DNA from: Pirellulaceae bacterium
Lineage (GTDB): Bacteria > Planctomycetota > Planctomycetia > Pirellulales > Pirellulaceae
NCBI GenBank assembly: GCA_022448315.1
Contig: JAKVCA010000004.1
Span: 1 to 64,000, forward strand
DNA length: 64,000 bases
Direction: 5' to 3'
In this document: in pieces, positions 13,453 to 43,227 of the stretch
How the letters are laid out: the number at the start of each line of letters is the position of its first letter
Numbering within the stretch: the first letter of the stretch is position 1
The notes under the pieces: generated by a model
What the model saw: only the letters and a program-made list of their open reading frames with translations
Database searches by the model: none
Told to the model about the DNA's origin: nothing
Made by a program: the position numbers and the translations under genes

Positions 13453-13658
13453 GCACGCCTCGTTCTGATAGCATTCCGCGCGAATTGCCATTCCTGCAAC
13501 CGCGTTCCATCGTCTAAACTCCGAAATCGATTTGGGACGAGCCGCCCTACTCACCGTATGAGAACGGATGACGATTTGTCGGCCGGTCCATGCGAAGGGC
13601 CGCCTGGGCCTTTATCGAAAACGAAGTGTGGGTTTTGAAGGCAGCAGGGAGGCATGCC

Positions 13659-14417
13659 TTGGCCAGAGTCTTATGCATTGCGAATCAAAAGGGAGGTGTC
13701 GGCAAGACCACGACGGCCGTCAATTTGGCCGATGCGCTGGCGAAATCCGACCGTCGAACGCTTTTGGTTGACCTGGATCCGCAATGCAACGCCACATCGG
13801 CACTCGGAGCTAAAGCGGTAGATCACCACCCTCTGCTGATGGATGAACCTCTCAGCGATCTTCAGGTGGGGATCTATCCGGACACCCTGGCGGTACTGCC
13901 GGGAAGTCGTAATATCGATGACGTTCAGAGGCTGGCCGCAAGCGACGAAACCGATCGTCGACACTTGCTCTCGAGACTCGCGACGACCCACGCAACATTT
14001 GATACGGTCGTGATCGACTGCCCTCCCTCTCTAGGCCGCCTCACTCAGACCGCATTGATGGCATCCACCGAAGTATTGATGCCCATCCAGTGCGAGTTTT
14101 TTGCGATGGAAGGCCTCACTCAAATGATCGAGGTCATTCGAGATGTCATGCACTCCGAAACCAGCCAACTGGATTTTGGGGGCATCCTGCTGACGATGTA
14201 CGACCCGACTTTGGAATTAACGTTGGAAGTTGATGCCGAAGTGCGCGACTTCTTTGGTGAAGTAGTCTTTGAAACTGTCATTCCTCGAGACATCAACGCT
14301 GCGGAAGCACCCAGTCACGGACAATCCGTGTTGGAATACGCCCCAAGGTGTCGTGCGACTCGAGCCTATATTGAATTGTGCATGGAGGTGCTGGAACGTG
14401 ACGACGAATCAGAATAA
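13659..14417 (+). CDS. parA: Chromosome partition ATPase ParA (Soj)
   Basis: About 252 residues. The deviant Walker A motif KGGVGKTT with its signature lysine comes right at the start (IANQKGGVGKTT), followed by LLVDLDPQ (Walker A') and VVIDCPPSLG (Walker B). It uses ATP to move ParB-parS complexes during chromosome segregation. The start is assigned to TTG at 13659, because an AGGGAGG ribosome site ends six bases upstream and the protein then begins like other ParAs. An ATG at 13590 would add 23 residues without similarity. The 3' end overlaps the parB start by 20 bases. Confidence 0.95.
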   Translation: MARVLCIANQKGGVGKTTTAVNLADALAKSDRRTLLVDLDPQCNATSALGAKAVDHHPLLMDEPLSDLQVGIYPDTLAVLPGSRNIDDVQRLAASDETDRRHLLSRLATTHATFDTVVIDCPPSLGRLTQTALMASTEVLMPIQCEFFAMEGLTQMIEVIRDVMHSETSQLDFGGILLTMYDPTLELTLEVDAEVRDFFGEVVFETVIPRDINAAEAPSHGQSVLEYAPRCRATRAYIELCMEVLERDDESE

Positions 14418-15432
14418 AAAACGTAGATTGGGTCGGGGGCTGGAGGCACTGCTGAATCCAACACCGGGTGCGGCAAGCCCTGAATCCGATGCTTCTGGCA
14501 ACGAAGGCCCCGCGAAGATCCTGCCAATGCGAACCGCCGCGCTCCCCTCGAGTGAGGATGAAGAGAGTGCTAGCACCACGAGCGATGTCCCTGATATTCA
14601 AGATCTGGTCTTCTTGAACGTTCATGAAATCGAGCGCAATCCTTTTCAACCCCGGCGGGAATTCAGCGAAGCAGAATTGGCGAGTCTCTCGGAGAGTCTC
14701 AAAGAACATGACATGTTGCAGCCGATTCTCGTCCGCGAAGTTGAAACGGGTTACCAGATCATTTCAGGTGAGCGTCGATGGCGAGCCGCTCAACTTGCCG
14801 GATGGGATCGTATTCCAGCGCGACTGCGAGTTGCCGATGATCGGCTGGTCGCTGAATTAGCCATCGTTGAAAATCTCCAACGCAAGGACCTGAATCCCCT
14901 TGAGAAGGCGATGTCATTTCGTCGCTATCTGGATGAGCACGATTGCTCTCAGGAAGACTTGGCAGGCCGATTGAAAATCGATCGCTCCACCATCTCCAAT
15001 TTGATGAGACTACTCGATCTCCCTGAAATTGTTCAGGACGCCCTGCGTATGGGTTCAATCTCTGCAGGACACGCGCGAGCACTGCTCCCACTTGGAGTGG
15101 AGTCGAGTCAAATCCAAATGTGTAACGCCATTCGCAAAGAAGGCTGGAGCGTTCGAGAAACCGAACGGCGAGTCCACCAGCAAATCGCGGACGAAGATTC
15201 CCTTGGCGAAACCTCCGCATCGACCACGGTAAAACGAAGTTCAACGCCGCTCCAAATCAAAGCACTCGAACAACAATTGCGGCGCGCCTTGGGTACGACG
15301 GTGGAGATCAAAGCAACCCGGCGTGGCAAAGGGAAAATCATGGTTCATTTCAGCAATAATGACGAGTTCATCCGCATTCGTGATTTTCTCACCCAAGATT
15401 CCGAAGTTCATAACCTGAGGCGAGCAGGCTGA
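14398..15432 (+). CDS. parB: Chromosome partition protein ParB (Spo0J)
   Basis: About 344 residues. The N-terminus reads RRLGRGLEALL, the usual ParA-contacting start. The CTP-binding/arginine-patch segment ISGERRWRAAQLAGW follows, then a helix-turn-helix (DLAGRLKIDRSTISNLMRLL) that reads parS, and a C-terminal dimerisation region. The start is GTG at 14398, nine bases after a GGAGG inside the end of parA, so translation is coupled. With the two parS sites it forms a complete parABS system. In many bacteria parAB lies near oriC, but no dnaA, gidA or DnaA-box cluster is visible here, so closeness to the origin is not shown. Confidence 0.96.
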   Translation: MTTNQNKKRRLGRGLEALLNPTPGAASPESDASGNEGPAKILPMRTAALPSSEDEESASTTSDVPDIQDLVFLNVHEIERNPFQPRREFSEAELASLSESLKEHDMLQPILVREVETGYQIISGERRWRAAQLAGWDRIPARLRVADDRLVAELAIVENLQRKDLNPLEKAMSFRRYLDEHDCSQEDLAGRLKIDRSTISNLMRLLDLPEIVQDALRMGSISAGHARALLPLGVESSQIQMCNAIRKEGWSVRETERRVHQQIADEDSLGETSASTTVKRSSTPLQIKALEQQLRRALGTTVEIKATRRGKGKIMVHFSNNDEFIRIRDFLTQDSEVHNLRRAG

Positions 15433-16028: not shown

Positions 16029-17579
16029 ATGGTCGCTCGCACCAGTTCATGGCGACAGCCAGCCAATGTGCCGCCAAAATCGAGCCGTCTTTATTTCGGC
16101 TGCGTGATCGGTCTGTCCGCGTTTTCGCTCCTCGCCTACCTTTGGCCTCAAACGCCACATATTGAACGGGTGCAATGCGTCATTGAGGTGACTCTGTCCC
16201 CGGAAGAAATCGAGGAGGGACTCTTCAAGGACCTGCTTGAAGAATCTTTCCAGGCCTGTCTTAAAAAGGATGTGCTCGACGACATCGTGTCACTCTCCTC
16301 CGCCTCCTTTACCCAACTCGAGTCAAGCCTGGGCATAAAACAGACGCTTCCGACCGAGCAAGAACAGTTAGGGTTCTGGCTCAAACACAAGGTCACGATT
16401 AACGAAGTAGGTGGGTCAACGGTCGACTACCGCTTAGTAGAACTGACAGGAACGGAACTTCGAGGGGACCTTGCCGCCATCCTGCTCAATCAATTGGCAA
16501 CACGCCTGACTGAAAAGCTGAATCGTAAAATCATTTTTGAGCGACTCGCAGGTGATTGGCTGCTCCATCAACAGAATATTGAAGATACCCTGCGATACCG
16601 ACGACAGTGGATGGGCGAACTCAGGGGAGCATCGGGCCTTCAGGCTCAGGTCCTCCAACAGATCGCGACACAACAGATCCCCAAACCGACCAGCTCTCCA
16701 ACCCAACTTGCATCAGCGAAAACGGTCACTCCGACTACAAAACCACCGCGTGACAGGGAACTTTTGCTTGCGGAGATCGAAATGCGTCAGGAGCAACTCC
16801 TCGCCTCGTCGAATCAACACACCGGCCCTGGGAGTCCATCAGAATTCGAGACCCGTCTACGGCAAATCGAACAACTTCAACAACTCGTCGGAGAATCTGG
16901 CCTTGCCCTACCACCAGAAACATCCGACGTCAAAGCAACCCGAGTTCGAGTCGAGGAAAATCAATTCTATCTTGAAAAAACCAATCCCGATCAAGTTGAC
17001 AGATCATCGGAACAACAAGCTGAATTTATCGGACTGATCGACCAAGCTCAGGATGCGAACAGTCAAATCTTTGACCTGCAGGCCGAGGCTGAATCTCGAC
17101 TGAAAGCCGATGAAAAACGGACGACCGAAATTCGAGAATGGATCGACAGTCTATCCCTTGGCTCCGCACCTTCTTCCCTGCAAATTATCAAGTTTGCCAG
17201 ACAACAGCCGAGATCGCCTTCTTCGATTCCCTCCTCTCACTGGATCTTTATTTGCTCTGTTTCGATCATCGTCGGCGGTGGATTATCCACCGCCCTCGCC
17301 TTTCGACCGATGCCATTTCAGTCTTCGGCCGATGTCGAGTCCACGCTCGGCGTTGAAGTACTCGGGGTCATTCCCGCAGAGCCGACAGAACGTGAATCGT
17401 TTGTGGCCAAACTCAAAAGGCATGAAAGCAAACTGAGAATTGCAGCTGAATTGACCGTTCTGATCATGACGATCCTCGTCGTCTTAAGCCTTTTTCAAGA
17501 CCCCCGCTTACTGCCACTCCTTCTGGAAAATCCCTTCGAAGGTGTGGCTCAAGCGTTTCGGTCGTTGCGTTCCCTTTAA
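16029..17579 (+). CDS. Wzz/GumC-like polysaccharide chain-length (PCP) protein
   Basis: 516 residues. A membrane helix lies at about 20-38. A large periplasmic part follows, rich in Gln/Glu/Leu coiled-coil segments (about 180-395). A second helix is at 405-424 and a third at about 470-489. Between the last two sits SSADVESTLGVEVLGVIPAEP, which matches the cytoplasmic loop linking polysaccharide co-polymerases to their BY-kinase (the S-x-x-D-(I/V)-E-x-x-LG-x-x-VLGVIP pattern). Such proteins set chain length and gate export of surface polysaccharide. It is the first gene of a four-gene operon with gaps of 26-44 bases or overlaps. The third helix after the loop is unusual for GumC-type proteins. 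The fold is inferred from topology and the loop only. Confidence 0.7.
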   Translation: MVARTSSWRQPANVPPKSSRLYFGCVIGLSAFSLLAYLWPQTPHIERVQCVIEVTLSPEEIEEGLFKDLLEESFQACLKKDVLDDIVSLSSASFTQLESSLGIKQTLPTEQEQLGFWLKHKVTINEVGGSTVDYRLVELTGTELRGDLAAILLNQLATRLTEKLNRKIIFERLAGDWLLHQQNIEDTLRYRRQWMGELRGASGLQAQVLQQIATQQIPKPTSSPTQLASAKTVTPTTKPPRDRELLLAEIEMRQEQLLASSNQHTGPGSPSEFETRLRQIEQLQQLVGESGLALPPETSDVKATRVRVEENQFYLEKTNPDQVDRSSEQQAEFIGLIDQAQDANSQIFDLQAEAESRLKADEKRTTEIREWIDSLSLGSAPSSLQIIKFARQQPRSPSSIPSSHWIFICSVSIIVGGGLSTALAFRPMPFQSSADVESTLGVEVLGVIPAEPTERESFVAKLKRHESKLRIAAELTVLIMTILVVLSLFQDPRLLPLLLENPFEGVAQAFRSLRSL

Positions 17580-17623
17580 AATCCTCGAAACCGCAGTTTC
17601 ACTATTTGTTGATTGATCGAGCC

Positions 17624-19810
17624 ATGACCCAACATCCATTTCAATTCCAACATCGCCCGTTTGCCGCAGCCCCCGACGTGAACAACTACGTTCCCACTGA
17701 GTCGGTGGAAGCCTCGATCGATGCCGTTTATCAATGCGTCCAGCGATCCGCAGGGCCCGCCTTGGTCATCGGACCCACGGGAATAGGCAAGTCAATGCTC
17801 TGTGTGGAACTTGCACGTCGTTTGGGCACGCCATTTGAGATGGTCCTTCTTGCCACGAGTCAAATCTGCACACGAAGGGCCCTGTTGCAAAACATTCTCT
17901 TTGAACTTGGGCTGAATTTTCGCGATCGCGAAGAGGGCGAACTCCGTCTCGGCATTTTGGATCACTTGAAATCGCCCAAGTCAACGTCCTCCGGGGTGTT
18001 GCTGATCATCGACGAAGCTCAAACCATGCCGCTTAAACTTTTGGAGGAGATTCGAGGTCTGACCAATATCCAGCGTCAGGGCCAATCCAGAGTCCACCTG
18101 GTGCTCGCGGGAAATCAGAGGCTCGATGAACGGCTCAATCACCCCAAAATGGAGGCCTTCACTCAAAGGATCGCCGCCCGCTGTTACCTGCAAAGCCTAA
18201 ACCGGCAGGACACCCATAACTTCATCGGTCTTCAATGGACCAGGGCGACAGGCAACACGGGGACGAGTCCATTCTCGGAGGCCGCGATTGACGCGGTCTA
18301 TGCAGCAACGAACGGCATCCCGAGACTAATCAATCAGCTTTGCGATCACACTCTTTATTTGGCGAGTGCCCGCAACATCACCGACTTCACGGATGAGCTT
18401 ATTGGAGAGGCCTGGTCCGACCTGCAACAACTCCCAACCCCATGGCAGGTAAACCACCAAGAGTCAAAAACGACTGGAAAAGATTCGAATACGGTTGTCG
18501 AATTCGGCGAACTAAGCGATGAAGTTTCTACAGACTCGCTTTCCTCCTCATCATCGAATCTCCCCCCTTTGCCTTGTGCGGATAACGGAGAATTGAACGA
18601 TCTTGGCGCACTGGTGTCAGTAGACGACTTGGTTGATCCGCTGTCGGAAATGACTGATTCCTCCGAGCCAATGTCGCATGAAACCCACGCAACACTTTCT
18701 TCCACACACGGTCTTTCCATCGGGTCGATCGAGTTCGAGCGTCTTTCCTCAACGCAGGTTTACTCTGGCGAGACCACCATCGCAAACTCATTGGAAGAGC
18801 CAACAACCCCAGCGGAAATTACTCTCGAAACCGAAAATCAGCCGGCCACGGCGAGCGACGCCAATCAAGTCGCCCATCCCTTTGAAAGTGATGATTTCAT
18901 CGAGGAAGAAGTCGTCGCTGAACAGAAAGAAATGATGGCTGCCGAATACGGCCTCCCGAAACCGGCGACCGAGCCATGCCAAGCGGAGAATCAGGCTGAA
19001 AGCGTCGAGGATTTGGAACTCGCCGCGGATTCATCGACCAAAGCGGTCGTCAACGAGATTGAGTCAACCGGAGCACTGCCAATGCTACCGTCGGACATCT
19101 CATTCTTCTTGAGTCAGTCACCCGACGGATACGAGTTCGGCGAAGCATCCATTGAGGATACGGTCGCGGCGACGATCGAAGGTTTATCCAGCGAACTCAC
19201 TACCGAACTGGCCGATGCTGAAGCTCATAAAGAGCCTCAAAAGTCCGAGACTGCTTTGGATGACATGATTGACCGATCGCAAAACGAAGGTTCGGCCGAC
19301 AGCCTCACGACTCATGAGGAGCCCTCTTGCTCCGCTCAACAACAGCTAAATGAGACGGAGACGACAGAAACAAGTGACACGTTAGAGGCGACAGAAGGTT
19401 GCTGCAAAAACTCCTGTTCGACTCATCCGTCCGATGAGTGTGAAATCAGTCATGCATCGGATCATGCCACGGTGACCTTGGGATCCTGCCCGACGGCGGA
19501 GGCCATTCGCGACGTGACTCAGTCCTCGAGCAGCACTGAAAAAACGGTCGTCTTGCCACAAGCCGAGCCACTCGCGACGGAAAACGAAACCGTCCACTCC
19601 ACCCATCAACAGGCCGCGAAGTCGCTCACCGATTCAAATGACGACAAGGACATGATCGTCGTTGACAATCCAATCCCGGCCAATGCGCTCCGACTGATCG
19701 GCTCGAAAACGCGAAAGAACGAGACGAACGCCGCGGAGTCGGAGGGCATTGCTTTCCGTGAAGATTACCAGAAACTGATGCATCGACTCCGTGGAACGAT
19801 CAATACGTAA
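17624..19810 (+). CDS. ExeA-like AAA+ ATPase with a long acidic low-complexity tail
   Basis: About 728 residues. The first 270 form an AAA+ ATPase of the ExeA/MshM type: Walker A GPTGIGKS at about 50-57, Walker B LLIIDEAQT at about 126-134, and the lid motif NGIPRLINQLCDHTLYLA. The architecture matches the ATPase that sits beside chain-length and tyrosine-kinase genes in XrtA/PEP-CTERM exopolysaccharide loci. The remaining 450 residues are Glu/Ser/Thr-rich and probably disordered, with a Cys cluster (GCCKNSC) and a short basic, more structured end containing REDYQKLMHRLRGT. No membrane segment is seen. I place the start at ATG 17624; ATG 17606 is also possible. The tail is far longer than in typical ExeA proteins. 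Its function is unknown. Confidence 0.75.
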   Translation: MTQHPFQFQHRPFAAAPDVNNYVPTESVEASIDAVYQCVQRSAGPALVIGPTGIGKSMLCVELARRLGTPFEMVLLATSQICTRRALLQNILFELGLNFRDREEGELRLGILDHLKSPKSTSSGVLLIIDEAQTMPLKLLEEIRGLTNIQRQGQSRVHLVLAGNQRLDERLNHPKMEAFTQRIAARCYLQSLNRQDTHNFIGLQWTRATGNTGTSPFSEAAIDAVYAATNGIPRLINQLCDHTLYLASARNITDFTDELIGEAWSDLQQLPTPWQVNHQESKTTGKDSNTVVEFGELSDEVSTDSLSSSSSNLPPLPCADNGELNDLGALVSVDDLVDPLSEMTDSSEPMSHETHATLSSTHGLSIGSIEFERLSSTQVYSGETTIANSLEEPTTPAEITLETENQPATASDANQVAHPFESDDFIEEEVVAEQKEMMAAEYGLPKPATEPCQAENQAESVEDLELAADSSTKAVVNEIESTGALPMLPSDISFFLSQSPDGYEFGEASIEDTVAATIEGLSSELTTELADAEAHKEPQKSETALDDMIDRSQNEGSADSLTTHEEPSCSAQQQLNETETTETSDTLEATEGCCKNSCSTHPSDECEISHASDHATVTLGSCPTAEAIRDVTQSSSSTEKTVVLPQAEPLATENETVHSTHQQAAKSLTDSNDDKDMIVVDNPIPANALRLIGSKTRKNETNAAESEGIAFREDYQKLMHRLRGTINT

Positions 19811-19838
19811 CTTGTGGCTCAATATCTGACGGAGTTCC

Positions 19839-21191
19839 ATGTCGATGAAATCGTTGAGGGAAATTGTGGAAGCGACGCGAGGTCGAAACCGCTCGGCTGC
19901 GCGAATGAACCGCCCCACGCTTCACCCGCTGACAGATATCCCCCCGGAGCCACAACGTCAGCCGCTACCCGAGACGATAGAGACCTCGTCCATGGGTAAT
20001 GAGCCTCATCGCGAGTCCCATATCCCCGAGGCTTCGGCAAGCTCTGCGGTCGAGGATTCTTCAGCCGCCCAAACGCGGCAAACATTACCTCCCGCCCTTG
20101 CCGATTCAGATCATTCCGCCGAATACGATCTGGCGTCTGACCCTGCAATCAATTCTCTGGAAAAGACGGGGGCGGTAATCGCGTCGATTCAAGGCCCGAC
20201 CGCCAAACCTCGTATCGTAAAATCGCACTTTCCCGCAGAAGGGACCCTAACGCGTGAAACAGGGAATCAACATCACTCCGTGAGTGAACACGAGGCGGTG
20301 AAGGAACCTGAAGTCTTCGGGGCAAACTCGCGGGATACGGCTTCACTTGAAGACCCTGTGAAAACCGAGCCTTATTCTCCCAAAATGCGAGATAACCAAC
20401 CTCGCGTCGATTTGCCCCAGAGCTCACCAGAAAATCGAATCCTGCCCTCGCTTTCGCCACCTGCCCTATCGAATTCAACTTTGGGTTCAACATTCAATCC
20501 TACAAGAACCGACAGCCCCGCAACAGCAAAGCAGGGGACCGACGCGGTGCACAGCAACTCGGGCAAGACAAGTTCGGGACGAGCACCCTACTGCGATGCT
20601 GTCGAGAAAATTGCCCAACGGTTGATCAAACGATTCGTCTCACAACCGCCCGGCCACTTACTGCTGGTGACTTCCGGGGAAATCAGGCGTTTCCGCACGG
20701 CAGCACGCACCCTGTCGTTCTCGTTGACGAATCAGCTTAAACGCTCAGGTCGATTGACCGTGATTTCGACAACGAACCACCGCAAGATCACAGATGCCAG
20801 GTCGCAAAAACCCGCAAACGATGAAATCGAAGCCTCATGGAAACCGGTTGCCCGCCGCTATCGATTCCGTCAGGATAATCAACTCTCGGTAGCGGACGTC
20901 ATTTTGGCTCAGCGTTATGCGAACCGGCTGCCCGAAGATTTCAATCGGCTCTTTGAAAAATACTCTGAAACAGGAGACATTTCCATCTGGATGGTGGACC
21001 AGGCGAACAAGGCACTCATTCGTTACTTGAAAGAGAGTTGCGACGCCACTGTCCTCATGGTCGATCTGAGCCATGCTTCCGTGGAGCTTTGCTCGAAATT
21101 GGCGACCCAACTCCAAGACTATGGCTCACCGCTCGTGGGGAGCATCGTCCTCCAGGAAATGAAGGGAGGACATCGTTGGGTAAAGTCTTAG
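19839..21191 (+). CDS. Degenerate BY-kinase-like protein (P-loop lost)
   Basis: 450 residues. Residues 1-250 are Pro/Ser/Thr-rich and probably disordered. Residues 250-450 follow the order of a bacterial tyrosine (BY) kinase domain: a strand and loop GHLLLVTSGEIRRFRTAART where Walker A should be, a strand LTVISTT in place of Walker A', DISIWMVDQ in place of Walker B, then DATVLMVDLSHAS and LVGSIVLQE, which match the late strands of CpsD/Wzc kinases. The Gly-Lys-Ser/Thr of the P-loop and the Walker A' Asp are absent, and there is no C-terminal tyrosine cluster (it ends GGHRWVKS). I infer a catalytically dead partner of the upstream chain-length protein and ATPase. The similarity was judged by eye. 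The epimerase start overlaps its 3' end by 16 bases. Confidence 0.55.
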   Translation: MSMKSLREIVEATRGRNRSAARMNRPTLHPLTDIPPEPQRQPLPETIETSSMGNEPHRESHIPEASASSAVEDSSAAQTRQTLPPALADSDHSAEYDLASDPAINSLEKTGAVIASIQGPTAKPRIVKSHFPAEGTLTRETGNQHHSVSEHEAVKEPEVFGANSRDTASLEDPVKTEPYSPKMRDNQPRVDLPQSSPENRILPSLSPPALSNSTLGSTFNPTRTDSPATAKQGTDAVHSNSGKTSSGRAPYCDAVEKIAQRLIKRFVSQPPGHLLLVTSGEIRRFRTAARTLSFSLTNQLKRSGRLTVISTTNHRKITDARSQKPANDEIEASWKPVARRYRFRQDNQLSVADVILAQRYANRLPEDFNRLFEKYSETGDISIWMVDQANKALIRYLKESCDATVLMVDLSHASVELCSKLATQLQDYGSPLVGSIVLQEMKGGHRWVKS

Positions 21192-22129
21192 TCACGGGGG
21201 GTGCTGGGTTCATTGGCTCGCATCTTGTAGAAGCCCTGATCGGTCAGGGTCATCAGGTCAACGTCCTCGACAATCTCGCCACGGGAGACCTGAGCCATCT
21301 AGATTCGGTGATCGACTCGATTCAATTCTTCAAGGGTGATACTCAGGACCCTCAGTTGGTTGCGGAAGCCATTGCTGAATGCGAAGTGGTTTTCCATCAA
21401 GCGGCCCTCGCTTCAGTCCCCGCGAGTATCGAGCACCCACTGGAATCTCATGCCGCCTGCGCAACCGGAACGCTCGTGATGCTGGATGCAAGCCGAAAGG
21501 CAGGTGTGAGAAGGGTGATCTACGCCGCCTCGAGCAGCTGCTATGGAGATCAGCCGACGATGGCGAAACGCGAAGATGACGCCATGCGCCCCATGTCCCC
21601 CTACGCGGCTGCCAAACTTACCGGTGAACTCTACTGCCAAGCGTTTTATCATACGTACGGCCTGGAAACCGTGGGCCTTCGATACTTCAACGTCTTTGGG
21701 CCAAGACAGGACCCTGACAGTCCATACTCGGCCGTGATCCCCATCTTTCTGACGCGAATGCTTCGGGGAGATTCCCCCGTGGTCTATGGTGACGGAGAAC
21801 AATCTCGTGACTTCACCTACGTCGCAAATGTCATTCAGGCCAATCTGCTCGCGGCTTCAAAAGCGGAAATCGCAGGACGCACCTTCAATATCGCGAATGG
21901 TGTTTCGACCAGCCTCCTACAACTGATCAAAACGCTGAACCAGACCCTAAACACCTCGATCCATCCGATCCATGAATCGGCAAGAGCGGGTGACATTCGG
22001 GATAGCATGGCCGATATTTCTGCGGCGCGAAAGGCCATCGGATATGAGCCCAAGGTGTTATTCCAAGAGGGCATTGAGCGGTCGATCGACTATTACAAGA
22101 CCCTTGCTCAGGGCACGCCGCCCTCCTGA
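21176..22129 (+). CDS. NAD-dependent nucleotide-sugar epimerase/dehydratase (extended SDR, GalE/WbpP-like)
   Basis: About 317 residues. It begins GKVLVTGGAGFIGSHLVEAL, the TGxxGxxG NAD site. The catalytic Ser-Ser and Tyr-x-x-x-Lys follow (AASSSCYGD; SPYAAAKL), then the GLRYFNVFGPRQDP signature typical of UDP-GlcNAc/UDP-Glc 4-epimerases. It should supply a sugar nucleotide for the polysaccharide handled by this operon. The start is TTG at 21176, six bases after GGGAGG and inside the preceding gene, giving translational coupling. The open frame further upstream (from 21038) is read-through of another frame. No glycosyltransferase follows. Confidence 0.88.
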   Translation: MGKVLVTGGAGFIGSHLVEALIGQGHQVNVLDNLATGDLSHLDSVIDSIQFFKGDTQDPQLVAEAIAECEVVFHQAALASVPASIEHPLESHAACATGTLVMLDASRKAGVRRVIYAASSSCYGDQPTMAKREDDAMRPMSPYAAAKLTGELYCQAFYHTYGLETVGLRYFNVFGPRQDPDSPYSAVIPIFLTRMLRGDSPVVYGDGEQSRDFTYVANVIQANLLAASKAEIAGRTFNIANGVSTSLLQLIKTLNQTLNTSIHPIHESARAGDIRDSMADISAARKAIGYEPKVLFQEGIERSIDYYKTLAQGTPPS

Positions 22130-39238: not shown

Positions 39239-40444
39239 ATGTCAGACGCACTCAAGCTAGTCATTGTTGACCCCTGCGATCGTACTCGCGAAGATCTCAA
39301 ACAGACGTTGTTGAGCCTTGAGTCGGCGTGGCTTGAGGCTGAGTGTTCGCGATACGAGTTCTTTCAGGATGTGGTCGAGCAATCGGTCCCCGACATTGGA
39401 ATCATCAATCTGGATTCCAACGCCGAGCAGGCAATTGCACTCGTCCAGTCAGTTTCCGAAGCGTGCCCTTCATGTAAGCTGATCGTCAGCAGCGACTCGA
39501 GCGACGGGCAACTGATTCTATCAGCCATTCGGGCAGGCGCCAGAGAGTTCATCAATTCCCCCATTCAGGCAACGGATCTGGTGGCCGCCATTGACCGCAT
39601 AAACCGTCAGTTGGGTAATGGCGAAGCGGCATCCAAGAAGCGAACAGGCAAAGTCATTGCAATATGCGGCGCAAGCGGGGGTACGGGTACGTCCAGCATT
39701 TGCGTCAACCTGTCGACGATGCTCGCAGAGCACGAAGAGACCTCCGTCGCACTTGTCGATCTGGATCTGGCTTTGGGCGCGACCGACGTCTTCCTCGACA
39801 TGCTGCCTGAGCATACCCTCTTGGACCTCGTACAAAACGCCGTAAGGCTGGACTTGGCCTTCCTCAAAAAATCACTCGCAAAGCATGAATCCGGTGTCTA
39901 CCTGCTTCCACGCCCCGTCCACCTCGACGAAATTCCCGCAGTTGGCATCCAGGAGTTCTCTCAGGTCATCGGTCTGATGCGGGCGGCCTTCAACTACATT
40001 GTTCTCGACCTGTCGAAATCGTATTCCCCACTGGACATTGAATCCTTGAAACAGGCCGATCATGTTCTACTCGTGACCCAGCTTGACCTGCCTTCATTGA
40101 GGAACGTCGTCCGGATCTTGAACTCCCTTCGACAAATGAACCTCGATGAAAAGGTCGAAATCGTGGTCAATCGAGTCGGTCTCGACAGCGGACAGATCAG
40201 CCTCAAAAAAGCGAAGGAAACGTTGAATCGGGACATTTATTGGCAGGTCCCCAACGACTACGCATCCATCGTGCAATTCCGAAATAATGGCATTCCGTTG
40301 AACCAACTCGCCCCCAAAGCGCTGGTGACTCAATCACTGCAGGGACTCGCCAACCGCCTCGCGGGAATCGAACCTGAAGACGAGGCCAGACGTTCCGGCT
40401 TCAAAGGAAATTGGCTAGGGTTTCTGAAGCAGAAGCAGGCATAA
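39239..40444 (+). CDS. cpaE: CpaE/TadZ-like pilus localisation ATPase
   Basis: About 401 residues. The N-terminal 120 residues form a response-regulator-like domain (KLVIVDPCDRTRED ... AGAREFINSPI) that lacks a normal phospho-acceptor site. The C-terminal part is a MinD/ParA-like ATPase with loop GASGGTGTSS (about 144-153), VALVDLDLALGATD and IVLDLSKSYSPLD. The P-loop has Thr-Ser-Ser where ParA has Gly-Lys-Thr, so the catalytic lysine is missing, a feature also known in CpaE/TadZ. It directs where the Tad machine assembles. The start at ATG 39239 is chosen; a TTG at 39224 is possible. A terminator follows at once. Confidence 0.9.
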   Translation: MSDALKLVIVDPCDRTREDLKQTLLSLESAWLEAECSRYEFFQDVVEQSVPDIGIINLDSNAEQAIALVQSVSEACPSCKLIVSSDSSDGQLILSAIRAGAREFINSPIQATDLVAAIDRINRQLGNGEAASKKRTGKVIAICGASGGTGTSSICVNLSTMLAEHEETSVALVDLDLALGATDVFLDMLPEHTLLDLVQNAVRLDLAFLKKSLAKHESGVYLLPRPVHLDEIPAVGIQEFSQVIGLMRAAFNYIVLDLSKSYSPLDIESLKQADHVLLVTQLDLPSLRNVVRILNSLRQMNLDEKVEIVVNRVGLDSGQISLKKAKETLNRDIYWQVPNDYASIVQFRNNGIPLNQLAPKALVTQSLQGLANRLAGIEPEDEARRSGFKGNWLGFLKQKQA

Positions 40445-40445
40445 A

Positions 40446-40471
40446 AAAAGGGCCTCGGAAAGGCCCTTTTG
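40446..40471. terminator. Bidirectional terminator between cpaE and the cytochrome-WD40 gene
   Basis: Stem AAAAGGGCC / GGCCCTTTT with an A-run on the left and T-run on the right, so it can stop transcripts from both converging genes. Confidence 0.88.
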
Positions 40472-40497
40472 GAATACCCTCTGAAGGTGGATGCCTA

Positions 40498-43227
40498 TCA
40501 GGCAGAGATCCCCTGCAACTCTTGGCGTTGCTGATCGATCTCCAAAAGCTTCTTCTCGAGAGCTTCGACTTCGGTCGTTGCAGCATCCACCGCCGCCTGT
40601 TGAGCCGACACTTTATTCTGCGTTTCAGCCAACGACTTCTTGATTCCGTTCATTTTTACCACCATCTCATCAGCCACCTTCTTCCCCGCCTCCAGGGCCG
40701 TGGCGTTTTCAGTCAATTGCTTTTTCAGCGAAGTGATCGACTGATTGAGTTCCGTGATCTTTGTCTTAGCATCCTCCAAGGCCTGCTGTTTCCCAACCTG
40801 AAGTTCCGTCAGTTGTTTCACGGCTGCTGCGAGTTCCTTGTCTTCACCCGCAAGTTCCAACGCGGCGGACGCGTGTTTCACCGCATCACCCAGTGCTGCG
40901 ACGCCCTGAGTCATTTTTTGAACCGAGACCGTCATGGCCTTCGAATTCGTTTCCGCTTTGGTCATCGTTTGCTGCATGCCGTTGCCCTGCTCGGACAGTT
41001 CTCCAAGTTTCGAAACCTGAGCCGAATGCTGACTCTCAGCGGTGGCCATCTCGGAGGTTTTTGTGGTCAGCAGTTGCGTAACTTCGGCCAACGCCGTTTC
41101 GGCTTGAGAAAGTGCTTCAGCCTTCGATTCCCACTCGGCTTCGGTTTTCTGACTCAAGGCCGAAAACTCTGCCATCTTGGCGACGAATTGAACCTCTGAC
41201 TTCCAGCGATTGACTTCGCTCTGCGCTGCCGCATGTGCCTTCTCTGCCACCGCCACGACTTCGTTTTGCTTTTCGAGTTCAGCGGACATGGTCACTTGAG
41301 ACTTGTTCATTTCGGCCATGCTGGCAACGAGCTTGGCGATCTCAACCTCCAGCATCTTGATGGCCACTTTTCGCTCTTGGATCTTTTTTGTCAGCTCTGC
41401 AATGTTGGCCTTCTTTACTTCCGCAGATTTCTGGTGCTTGGCGAGCGTCGCTCTACGAGCGTCGAGAGCTTTTGCTGCTGCCGCGGCAACCTGTTTCAAT
41501 TCAGGGTCGCCTCCAGACGAATTTGCGGCCTCGGCGAGTTTATCTCCTGCCAACTGCAATGAGGGGAGGACTTTCTGAATGACGGCAATCGACTCCGATA
41601 ACGACGTTGCCATGGTCATGTTGTCGGCAAGCATCTTTTCATCCGACGCTTGAGCCGCAACAGCCGCATTAAGGTTTGTCTCTTTGGTCGACATGTCCTG
41701 CGTGCTCTGAGTCAGTTTCGTTCGAACAGCGACAAGCTGCGTGTCCATTTCCTTCTGTTTCGCCTGCTCAGGCGTAAGTTTTGCTGTCGCCTCACCAAGC
41801 GTTTTTTCGGCCAACGTCAGTCGACTCTCAAGTGATGGAGGAGTGACCTCGAGACGTCCAACTTCTTTCCCGTCCGCGGAAAACACAATCGCGTTGCCAG
41901 CCCAATCACCGACAACAATCTGATTTGTTTCATCGCAGTGGGTGACTGAAGTACCGATGTCGGCCAAACCACTGAAGGCTGCAAGTTGTTTACCTGCCTG
42001 ATCCCACAGTTTCCCCGTCCGATCTCTCCCCGTCGTCACGAGTCGGCCATCGCGGGCGAACTCCACCGCCTGCGTTCCACCGCCGTGGGCGTTCCAACTG
42101 CGGACCTGCCCACCGTTCTCCATCTCCCAAAGCTTGACGGTTCCGTCCTCGCTGCAAGACGCGAGCAGATTCGAATCACCTCGCCAAGACAAACCGGTAA
42201 CCGCGGCCCCATGCCCTGGAAGTGTTAAATACTCTCGCCCGGTAAACGTTTCCCAGACATGGATCCCGCCATTTCGATCGGCTGTCGCCAACAACACTCC
42301 ATCTGGGCTGAACTCACCGGCCGTCAACCACTCTGTATGTTTTTTAACTTCAAACGCCAGTTCTTCCGTCGCGGTGGAGTACACGCGAACCATTTTCTGA
42401 GGACCACCTACGAAGACCTGTTGTTGATCTGGGCTCAAATCAGCCGTCAAAATGGCATCGATCTCTTCGTCAAGCGTCGCCAACCGACGCCCTGACCTGA
42501 GATCCCAGATGGCGACGATGCCTTGTGCACCGGGTCGTCCGCCAGCTCCCATGAGTAGAGATCCGTTCCGACTGAACTTCAGGACATTGATGATGCCTTC
42601 GGGAAAGTCAAGGATACCAGTCAATTCCCGCGTCGCTGTGTCGTACAACTGCACCTGCCCCGGTCCAGCGAGGGCCATGACCGAAGCCCAAGGACTCGTA
42701 TGCATGGTCAAAACCGCATTCGCCCGGCTGACCACGTTGGAGGGTTGCAATTCAAGGTGGGCCGGACTGATCACCACAGCCGGCCTTTCCAACGGTGAAG
42801 CGTCGAGTGCGGCGACCTTGGGCTTATTCGACATCCGCGCCTTACTCGACTTGTTTTCAAGGGCCCCTTGCTCAATCCACTGGCTTAGAAGGCTAATCTC
42901 CTCATCTGGAATGCGAGGCGAATCCGGCGGCATGGCGGGTTCATCATCATGATTGACCAGTGCAAAGAGATAGCTGCCACCCACATCCCCGGGGGAAACG
43001 ACCTCACCAGAACCACCACCCAGCATCAGGCTGGTGTAGTTCGTGACGTCCAAGTCCCCATTTTTTTTGTCCGGGTTATGACAGGCCGCACAACGGGTTC
43101 GAAACATCGGCTTGATGTGATCTTCAAAGGTCACCTTTTCCTGTCCGAGAACATTGTCGCTCAGGACGAAAATCAAGCAAACAAGGGTCCATGTCACCCG
43201 ATGAAAGCACACTTTAGTGGCATCCAT
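40498..43227 (-). CDS. Cytochrome c - WD40 - coiled-coil fusion protein, exported
   Basis: 909 residues. A signal peptide (TWTLVCLIFVLSDNVLG) is followed by a planctomycete-type cytochrome domain with CAACH (46-50) and a candidate axial Met99 in EPAMPPDSPRIPDEE. WD40 blades fill about 160-470 (HGAAVTGLSWRGDSNLLASCSEDGTVKLW). The last 430 residues are an Ala/Glu/Lys/Gln-rich coiled coil (for example MLEVEIAKLVASMAEMNK). It is the last gene of the four-gene minus-strand cassette starting at 49807. Functions of these fusions are not established. I infer an extracytoplasmic scaffold able to bind heme. Confidence 0.88.
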   Translation of the reverse strand: MDATKVCFHRVTWTLVCLIFVLSDNVLGQEKVTFEDHIKPMFRTRCAACHNPDKKNGDLDVTNYTSLMLGGGSGEVVSPGDVGGSYLFALVNHDDEPAMPPDSPRIPDEEISLLSQWIEQGALENKSSKARMSNKPKVAALDASPLERPAVVISPAHLELQPSNVVSRANAVLTMHTSPWASVMALAGPGQVQLYDTATRELTGILDFPEGIINVLKFSRNGSLLMGAGGRPGAQGIVAIWDLRSGRRLATLDEEIDAILTADLSPDQQQVFVGGPQKMVRVYSTATEELAFEVKKHTEWLTAGEFSPDGVLLATADRNGGIHVWETFTGREYLTLPGHGAAVTGLSWRGDSNLLASCSEDGTVKLWEMENGGQVRSWNAHGGGTQAVEFARDGRLVTTGRDRTGKLWDQAGKQLAAFSGLADIGTSVTHCDETNQIVVGDWAGNAIVFSADGKEVGRLEVTPPSLESRLTLAEKTLGEATAKLTPEQAKQKEMDTQLVAVRTKLTQSTQDMSTKETNLNAAVAAQASDEKMLADNMTMATSLSESIAVIQKVLPSLQLAGDKLAEAANSSGGDPELKQVAAAAAKALDARRATLAKHQKSAEVKKANIAELTKKIQERKVAIKMLEVEIAKLVASMAEMNKSQVTMSAELEKQNEVVAVAEKAHAAAQSEVNRWKSEVQFVAKMAEFSALSQKTEAEWESKAEALSQAETALAEVTQLLTTKTSEMATAESQHSAQVSKLGELSEQGNGMQQTMTKAETNSKAMTVSVQKMTQGVAALGDAVKHASAALELAGEDKELAAAVKQLTELQVGKQQALEDAKTKITELNQSITSLKKQLTENATALEAGKKVADEMVVKMNGIKKSLAETQNKVSAQQAAVDAATTEVEALEKKLLEIDQQRQELQGISA

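Follow-up and report, generated by a model that had tools for sequence, protein, structure and literature searches.

Some polysaccharide co-polymerases (PCPs) lack a kinase domain and are paired with a stand-alone pseudokinase of the bacterial tyrosine kinase (BY-kinase) type. EcpK of Myxococcus xanthus is without all Walker motifs and the tyrosine tail, binds the PCP EpsV, and is required for exopolysaccharide (PMC12004946). The same role has been proposed for HfsB, the stand-alone pseudokinase accompanying the kinase-less PCP HfsA in the Caulobacter crescentus holdfast system, and both pairs have been put forward as phosphorylation-independent PCP scaffolds, in a text that does not mention planctomycetes (PMC12004946). 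Literature searches on BY-kinase loss in planctomycetes and on degenerate kinases of PCPs found no paper. Here, a four-gene locus (positions 16029 to 22129) was analyzed in a 64,000-nucleotide stretch (the window) of a Pirellulaceae bacterium genome (assembly GCA_022448315.1, contig JAKVCA010000004.1). We consider it probable that its third gene encodes a BY pseudokinase that scaffolds the neighboring PCP and may serve as an adaptor to an ATPase encoded between the two.

As in EcpK/EpsV, a stand-alone BY-kinase fold that lacks Walker A, the Walker A' Asp, the aligned Walker B Asp, and a Tyr tail is combined with a kinase-less PCP; HfsB/HfsA, compared by its description in PMC12004946, shares this pairing. 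Unlike in either system, the locus has an ExeA/XrtA-type AAA+ ATPase gene between the PCP and pseudokinase genes, the pseudokinase family bears a long N-terminal linker and a conserved N-terminal peptide, and the PCP has a third transmembrane (TM) helix by inferred topology. An earlier note on this DNA, made from the sequence alone, had suggested a new mode of chain length control; since EcpK and HfsB were already described, phosphorylation-independent PCP control as such is not new. We read the locus as a planctomycete version of the BY pseudokinase-PCP systems, set apart by an AAA+ ATPase gene within the operon, the spread across the order Pirellulales, and the existence of kinase-intact relatives.

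The four genes run in one direction; the first two intervals are 44 and 28 nt, the last pair overlaps by 16 nt, and the PCP, ExeA-like ATPase, BY-kinase-shaped protein, and sugar epimerase listed in the earlier note are all present (Table 1). The C-terminal ~200 residues of the third protein have a BY-kinase (MinD-like) fold, as had been supposed, with agreement between a shuffle-tested profile and an AlphaFold2 (AF2) structure prediction followed by a fold search. Searched alone, the window protein gave no match in Pfam or NCBIfam. A profile of 67 relatives, which omitted the window protein and its closest relative (L111), detected the window domain (residues 247 to 439) with a score of 29.7 bits (best of 2,000 shuffles, 10.5). 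The AF2 model (predicted local distance difference test [pLDDT], 75.5; predicted template modeling score [pTM], 0.74) was compared using VIA-align; the top 19 rows were all BY-kinases (Z, 14.6 to 16.4; next fold, 12.2), with Wzc, Etk, VpsO, BceF, and CapB as the leading PDB matches. Kinase-intact relatives were part of the alignment behind this model and influence it, so the independent test of the fold is the 67-relative profile. A 34-member family profile (window included) matched BceF (1.6e-30), Etk (8.9e-24), Wzc (3.6e-23), VpsO (9.2e-23), and then CapB in PDB. Among the same 34 members, 26 matched TIGR01007 and 25 matched TIGR03018, for which the window protein itself is too diverged.

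The fold is shared with active BY-kinases (Wzc/CapB/Etk), whereas the P-loop GK[ST], the Walker A' Asp, and the Tyr-rich tail are absent from the window protein. Met occupies the aligned Walker B position and an Asp follows two residues later (IWMVDQ); Walker B has thus been either displaced or lost and is not cleanly scored. Only one Tyr lies in the last 30 residues. The claim that Gly-Lys-(Ser/Thr), the A' Asp, and the Tyr cluster were all missing thus stood at the catalytic positions; it failed as a statement about the whole protein, since one Gly-Lys-Thr occurs in the linker. A frameshift or sequencing error concealing the P-loop was considered and rejected, as the other forward frames hold none. 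A domain of this kind would be unable to bind ATP in the usual manner or to autophosphorylate.

In many Pirellulales, homologous genes are flanked by the same ATPase gene and often also by the epimerase gene, and the expected gene order was thereby recovered in other planctomycetes in a neighborhood survey. Motifs were counted in the 72 readable family members encoded beside the ATPase. Six kept GKT (L139, L153, L163, L168, L169, and L178), 54 had the Walker A' Asp, and 30 had an Asp at the aligned Walker B position; a C-terminal Tyr cluster was found in none of the 72. The prospect that related genomes carry an intact P-loop at this locus was thus borne out in one clade only, and no frameshift was involved. 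Local decay confined to the window genome was rejected, as the P-loop Lys is absent from 66 of the 72 relatives. The locus of a cultured relative, Blastopirellula marina DSM 3645 (L152), is likewise Lys-less.

These data also bear on the reading that the gene is a relic losing its function in this genome and doing nothing. Strong divergence, a degenerate N-terminal motif, and absence of the gene from some relatives would fit such decay. Against it, the 450-codon frame is open, overlaps the next gene, and has a codon-position composition like that of its neighbors; the sequence is compatible with the fold, and a Lys-less gene has been retained in most lineages, usually with a PCP. We regard a relic as highly improbable. 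The domain might instead bind nucleotide through an atypical P-loop and act as a switch, like TadZ-type MinD relatives; the A' Asp is kept in many relatives, and a few have near-P-loops (e.g., SGTTTT or DGTGTT). The window copy, however, has neither the P-loop Lys nor an Asp at the A' and aligned Walker B positions, and we think a switch quite improbable. We return to a pseudokinase scaffold as the preferred reading.

In a tree of the ATPases, all GKT loci fell within one 13-row group (Shimodaira-Hasegawa-like approximate likelihood ratio test, 97; quick method) nested among Lys-less rows. This nesting suggests repeated loss of the P-loop, as judged from sequences on a tree whose backbone is poorly supported and in which the window's placement is unsure. 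Outside the order (same phylum), the ATPase gene is followed by a BY-kinase gene with GK[ST] and C-terminal tyrosines in four loci (L251, L253, L256, and L258; P-loops KEGKS, SEGKS, AEGKS, or GEGKT); L252 has KDGRS and L254 has none. Eleven genomes from a different family within the same class were also covered, and none was found to have a kinase-like gene next to the ATPase. Since the kinase is mostly intact beside the ATPase outside the order, the loss appears derived; most simply, ATPase and kinase were paired ancestrally, and the active site of the kinase was then lost in the majority of Pirellulales.

Single-sequence evidence for the PCP was weak, consisting only of a match to TIGR03007 (NCBIfam search; E = 1.9e-4; residues 392 to 487) scoring 19.8, below the curated cut-off of 278.85. 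Among 22 members of its family, 16 match TIGR03007, and the family matches PslE and Wzc in PDB. The AF2 model was of moderate quality (pLDDT, 71.5; pTM, 0.47) and most resembled Wzc, KpsE, WzzE, and FepE, with moderate support. The protein is thus identified by profile and a moderate-quality fold match, and it carries no kinase domain. TM helices were predicted at about residues 17 to 38, 402 to 424, and 454 to 490; by this topology, the TM2-TM3 loop would be cytoplasmic and is a candidate contact site for the kinase-like protein. PCPs of the family seem to have the third TM helix followed by a short tail with [ED]xP[FL], and the tail is missing in PCPs of GKT-keeping loci (L153, L163, L168, L169, and L178). 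The tail was dropped as a pseudokinase binding site because the third TM helix in the AF2 model would place it in the periplasm. A kinase-like gene is present in 46 of 50 loci with a recognized PCP versus 13 of 48 without one (Fisher P = 1.9e-11, uncorrected for shared ancestry). For this kinase-less PCP, the pseudokinase would be a scaffold that aids assembly and cycling of the oligomer and so sets the length or export of the polymer, with no tyrosine phosphorylation involved.

The ATPase matched TIGR03015 (E = 1.5e-36; score, 126.2, below the curated cut-off of 324.5) and AAA_22 (2e-20). Its domain spans about residues 1 to 285 and is followed by a long acidic low-complexity tail, typical of Pirellulales; beyond the order and class, the protein is mostly short (about 290 amino acids [aa]). 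An alternative start (TTG at 17606) is possible. Two short tail motifs were counted, DDRDLIVVEDD in 47/126 ATPases by strict pattern (0.3 expected from shuffles) and the C-terminal RRQEYRQLFARLRRG in 110/126 (0.05 expected). Both are kept across Pirellulales, even in loci without the PCP and the kinase-like gene, and because the C-terminal motif is present where the kinase-like gene is absent, its partner need not be the pseudokinase. A kinase-like domain fused to the ATPase in L058 was considered, and none was found there.

The ATPase may spend ATP on PCP assembly and disassembly through the pseudokinase, in place of a kinase cycle. In favor of this, the ATPase shows no variation in its Walker A and B residues even as the kinase-like domain degenerates, the two genes are adjacent across the order, and the ATPase could be the docking site for the N-terminal peptide conserved in the kinase-like family. 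Yet the ATPase coexists with intact kinases elsewhere, and in 35 of the 98 loci with full context it persists although both the PCP and the kinase-like gene are missing; we consider this energy transfer unlikely. Since it adjoins intact, Tyr-tailed kinases elsewhere, the ATPase did not arise as a replacement, and the suggestion in the earlier note that it stands in for a dead kinase was not supported in that form. The ATPase predates the kinase loss, and it could possibly supply the role of phosphorylation.

The N-terminal peptide, M[SG]xxLxALKxIExR, occurs in 37/75 kinase-like proteins by strict pattern (1.0 expected from shuffles). Kinases outside the order also bear it (MGKMHDALRKAE), and in L257 and L259 the gene following that of the ATPase encodes a protein that is otherwise unrelated but starts with the same type of peptide (MSRIFDELKKFRGKK). 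Plasmid-borne kinases, also consulted for this motif, proved to be CpsD/CapB types whose matches spanned the domain alone. Judged by this distribution, it is a possible ATPase-docking peptide; it presumably resembles a motif of ExeB. Carried on a long linker in most relatives, it may dock onto the adjacent ExeA-type AAA+ ATPase, and the pseudokinase would then bridge ATPase and PCP as an adaptor. That the adaptor couples the AAA+ ring to the PCP, so that ATP hydrolysis rather than tyrosine phosphorylation drives cycling and sets length in Pirellulales, is doubtful. A AAA+ ATPase and a partner also form the published GspA/GspB (ExeA/ExeB) pair of type II secretion assembly, in which the cytoplasmic N-terminus of the GspB-type partner is short (PMC9239104). 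Unlike GspB, the partner here is a BY-kinase-fold protein and not a membrane scaffold for the secretin.

Several observations weigh against a pseudokinase scaffold acting on polysaccharide chain length. No glycosyltransferase, Wzx, or Wzy was recognized at 12 to 27 kb of the window. The window copy is among the most diverged of its family (9 to 21% identity to the others), and its N-terminal motif is degenerate. In 13 loci a kinase-like gene occurs without a recognized PCP, PCP detection is imperfect, and the association test ignores common descent.

The locus has the same three kinds of protein as the XrtA/PEP-CTERM set, a parallel already drawn from the gene content and upheld by the matches of the PCP to TIGR03007, the ATPase to TIGR03015, and most kinase-like relatives to TIGR03018. 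It differs from that set in that the PCP and ATPase scores fall below cut-off, the kinase is predicted to be inactive, and the locus has no exosortase; the single exosortase match in the genome (PF09721) lies on G000:C105, whereas the window belongs to contig C61.

The TIGR03018 search of the genome returned six matches, two BY-kinase-like and four ParA-, CpaE-, or TadZ-like. No canonical BY-kinase was found by this search in the ~97% complete assembly, from which a piece may be missing. One BY-kinase-like match is a full-length Wzc (L200:152-2335 [G000:C105], minus strand) that reads PDTGCTGT where PGDGK[ST] would be expected and has few tyrosines at its C-terminus; its neighbors are an exosortase, an EpsI-like gene, and a gene for a 1,655-aa tetratricopeptide repeat protein. 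Among 29 loci of relatives fetched with its kinase domain, 23 fit the P-loop pattern, all with GK[ST], and six were not read; unlike the C105 Wzc, the Wzc proteins of the relatives read have the Lys and mostly Tyr-rich tails. The other is a second stand-alone protein (451 aa; L199:8690-10045 [G000:C54], plus strand) with Arg for Lys (SGDGRSVM), encoded after a 291-aa one-TM protein gene and before a membrane protein gene.

The epimerase is an ordinary short-chain dehydrogenase/reductase (SDR; PF01370; E = 3.6e-63, Pfam) that starts at TTG 21176, just 3' of a Shine-Dalgarno-like GGGAGGA. It was rejected as a specific partner of the kinase-like gene, as no association was found among loci with full context (P = 0.67). 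ParA and ParB genes lie just upstream of the locus on the same strand (13590 to 15432), and a ParA-like gene is also upstream in L164, L185, and L191. At about 39500 to 40800, a CpaE/TadZ-like protein with a Lys-less P-loop (GASGGTGTSS) adjoins a secretin-like gene (seen in L195).

Table 1. Features of the locus in window coordinates
Feature	Position	Strand	Basis
PCP (Wzz/Wzc-like, without kinase domain), 516 aa	16029..17579	+	Profile, family matches, AF2 model
PCP loop, ~30 residues between predicted TM2 and TM3 (SSADVESTLGVEVLGVIP)	17301..17390	+	Consensus SxxExxxxLxxPVxGxxP, AF2 helices
ExeA/XrtA-type AAA+ ATPase, 728 aa	17624..19810	+	TIGR03015, AAA_22; start is the family Met
Intact Walker A of ATPase, GPTGIGKS	17771..17794	+	Invariant columns G50, G53, G55, K56 (24 sequences)
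Intact Walker B Asp-Glu of ATPase	18011..18016	+	Invariant D130, E131 (24 sequences)
First short conserved motif of ATPase tail, DDKDMIVVDN (family DDRDLIVVEDD)	19640..19669	+	Motif count
C-terminal ATPase motif, FREDYQKLMHRLRG (family RRQEYRQLFARLRRG)	19754..19795	+	Motif count
BY-kinase-like pseudokinase, 450 aa: N-terminal helix, disordered linker, C-terminal BY-kinase-fold domain	19839..21191	+	Profile, AF2 model
Degenerate N-terminal motif of pseudokinase, MSMKSLREIVEATR	19839..19880	+	Family motif comparison
Stray Gly-Lys-Thr, residues 242-244, in disordered linker before first helix, off P-loop position	20562..20570	+	Sequence, alignment
BY-kinase-fold domain, residues 247-439	20577..21155	+	Profile, AF2 model
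P-loop-equivalent site, residues 278-289, TSGEIRRFRTAA, without Gly-Lys-Ser/Thr	20670..20705	+	Family alignment, profile
Walker A' Asp position, Ser310 (LTVIS)	20766..20768	+	Family alignment, profile
NAD-dependent sugar epimerase, 317 aa (TviC/GalE-like SDR)	21176..22129	+	PF01370

Until now, the idea of pseudokinases running PCPs without phosphorylation has had its basis mainly in EcpK and HfsB. In this locus, two parts of an XrtA-type set have been separated, in that the ATPase is predicted to stay catalytic and the kinase loses its active site. The result of the genome search for a canonical BY-kinase suggests that tyrosine phosphorylation may be dispensable for polysaccharide export in this bacterium. 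The pattern is order-wide, and the kinase-intact relatives beside the same ATPase provide natural before-and-after pairs.

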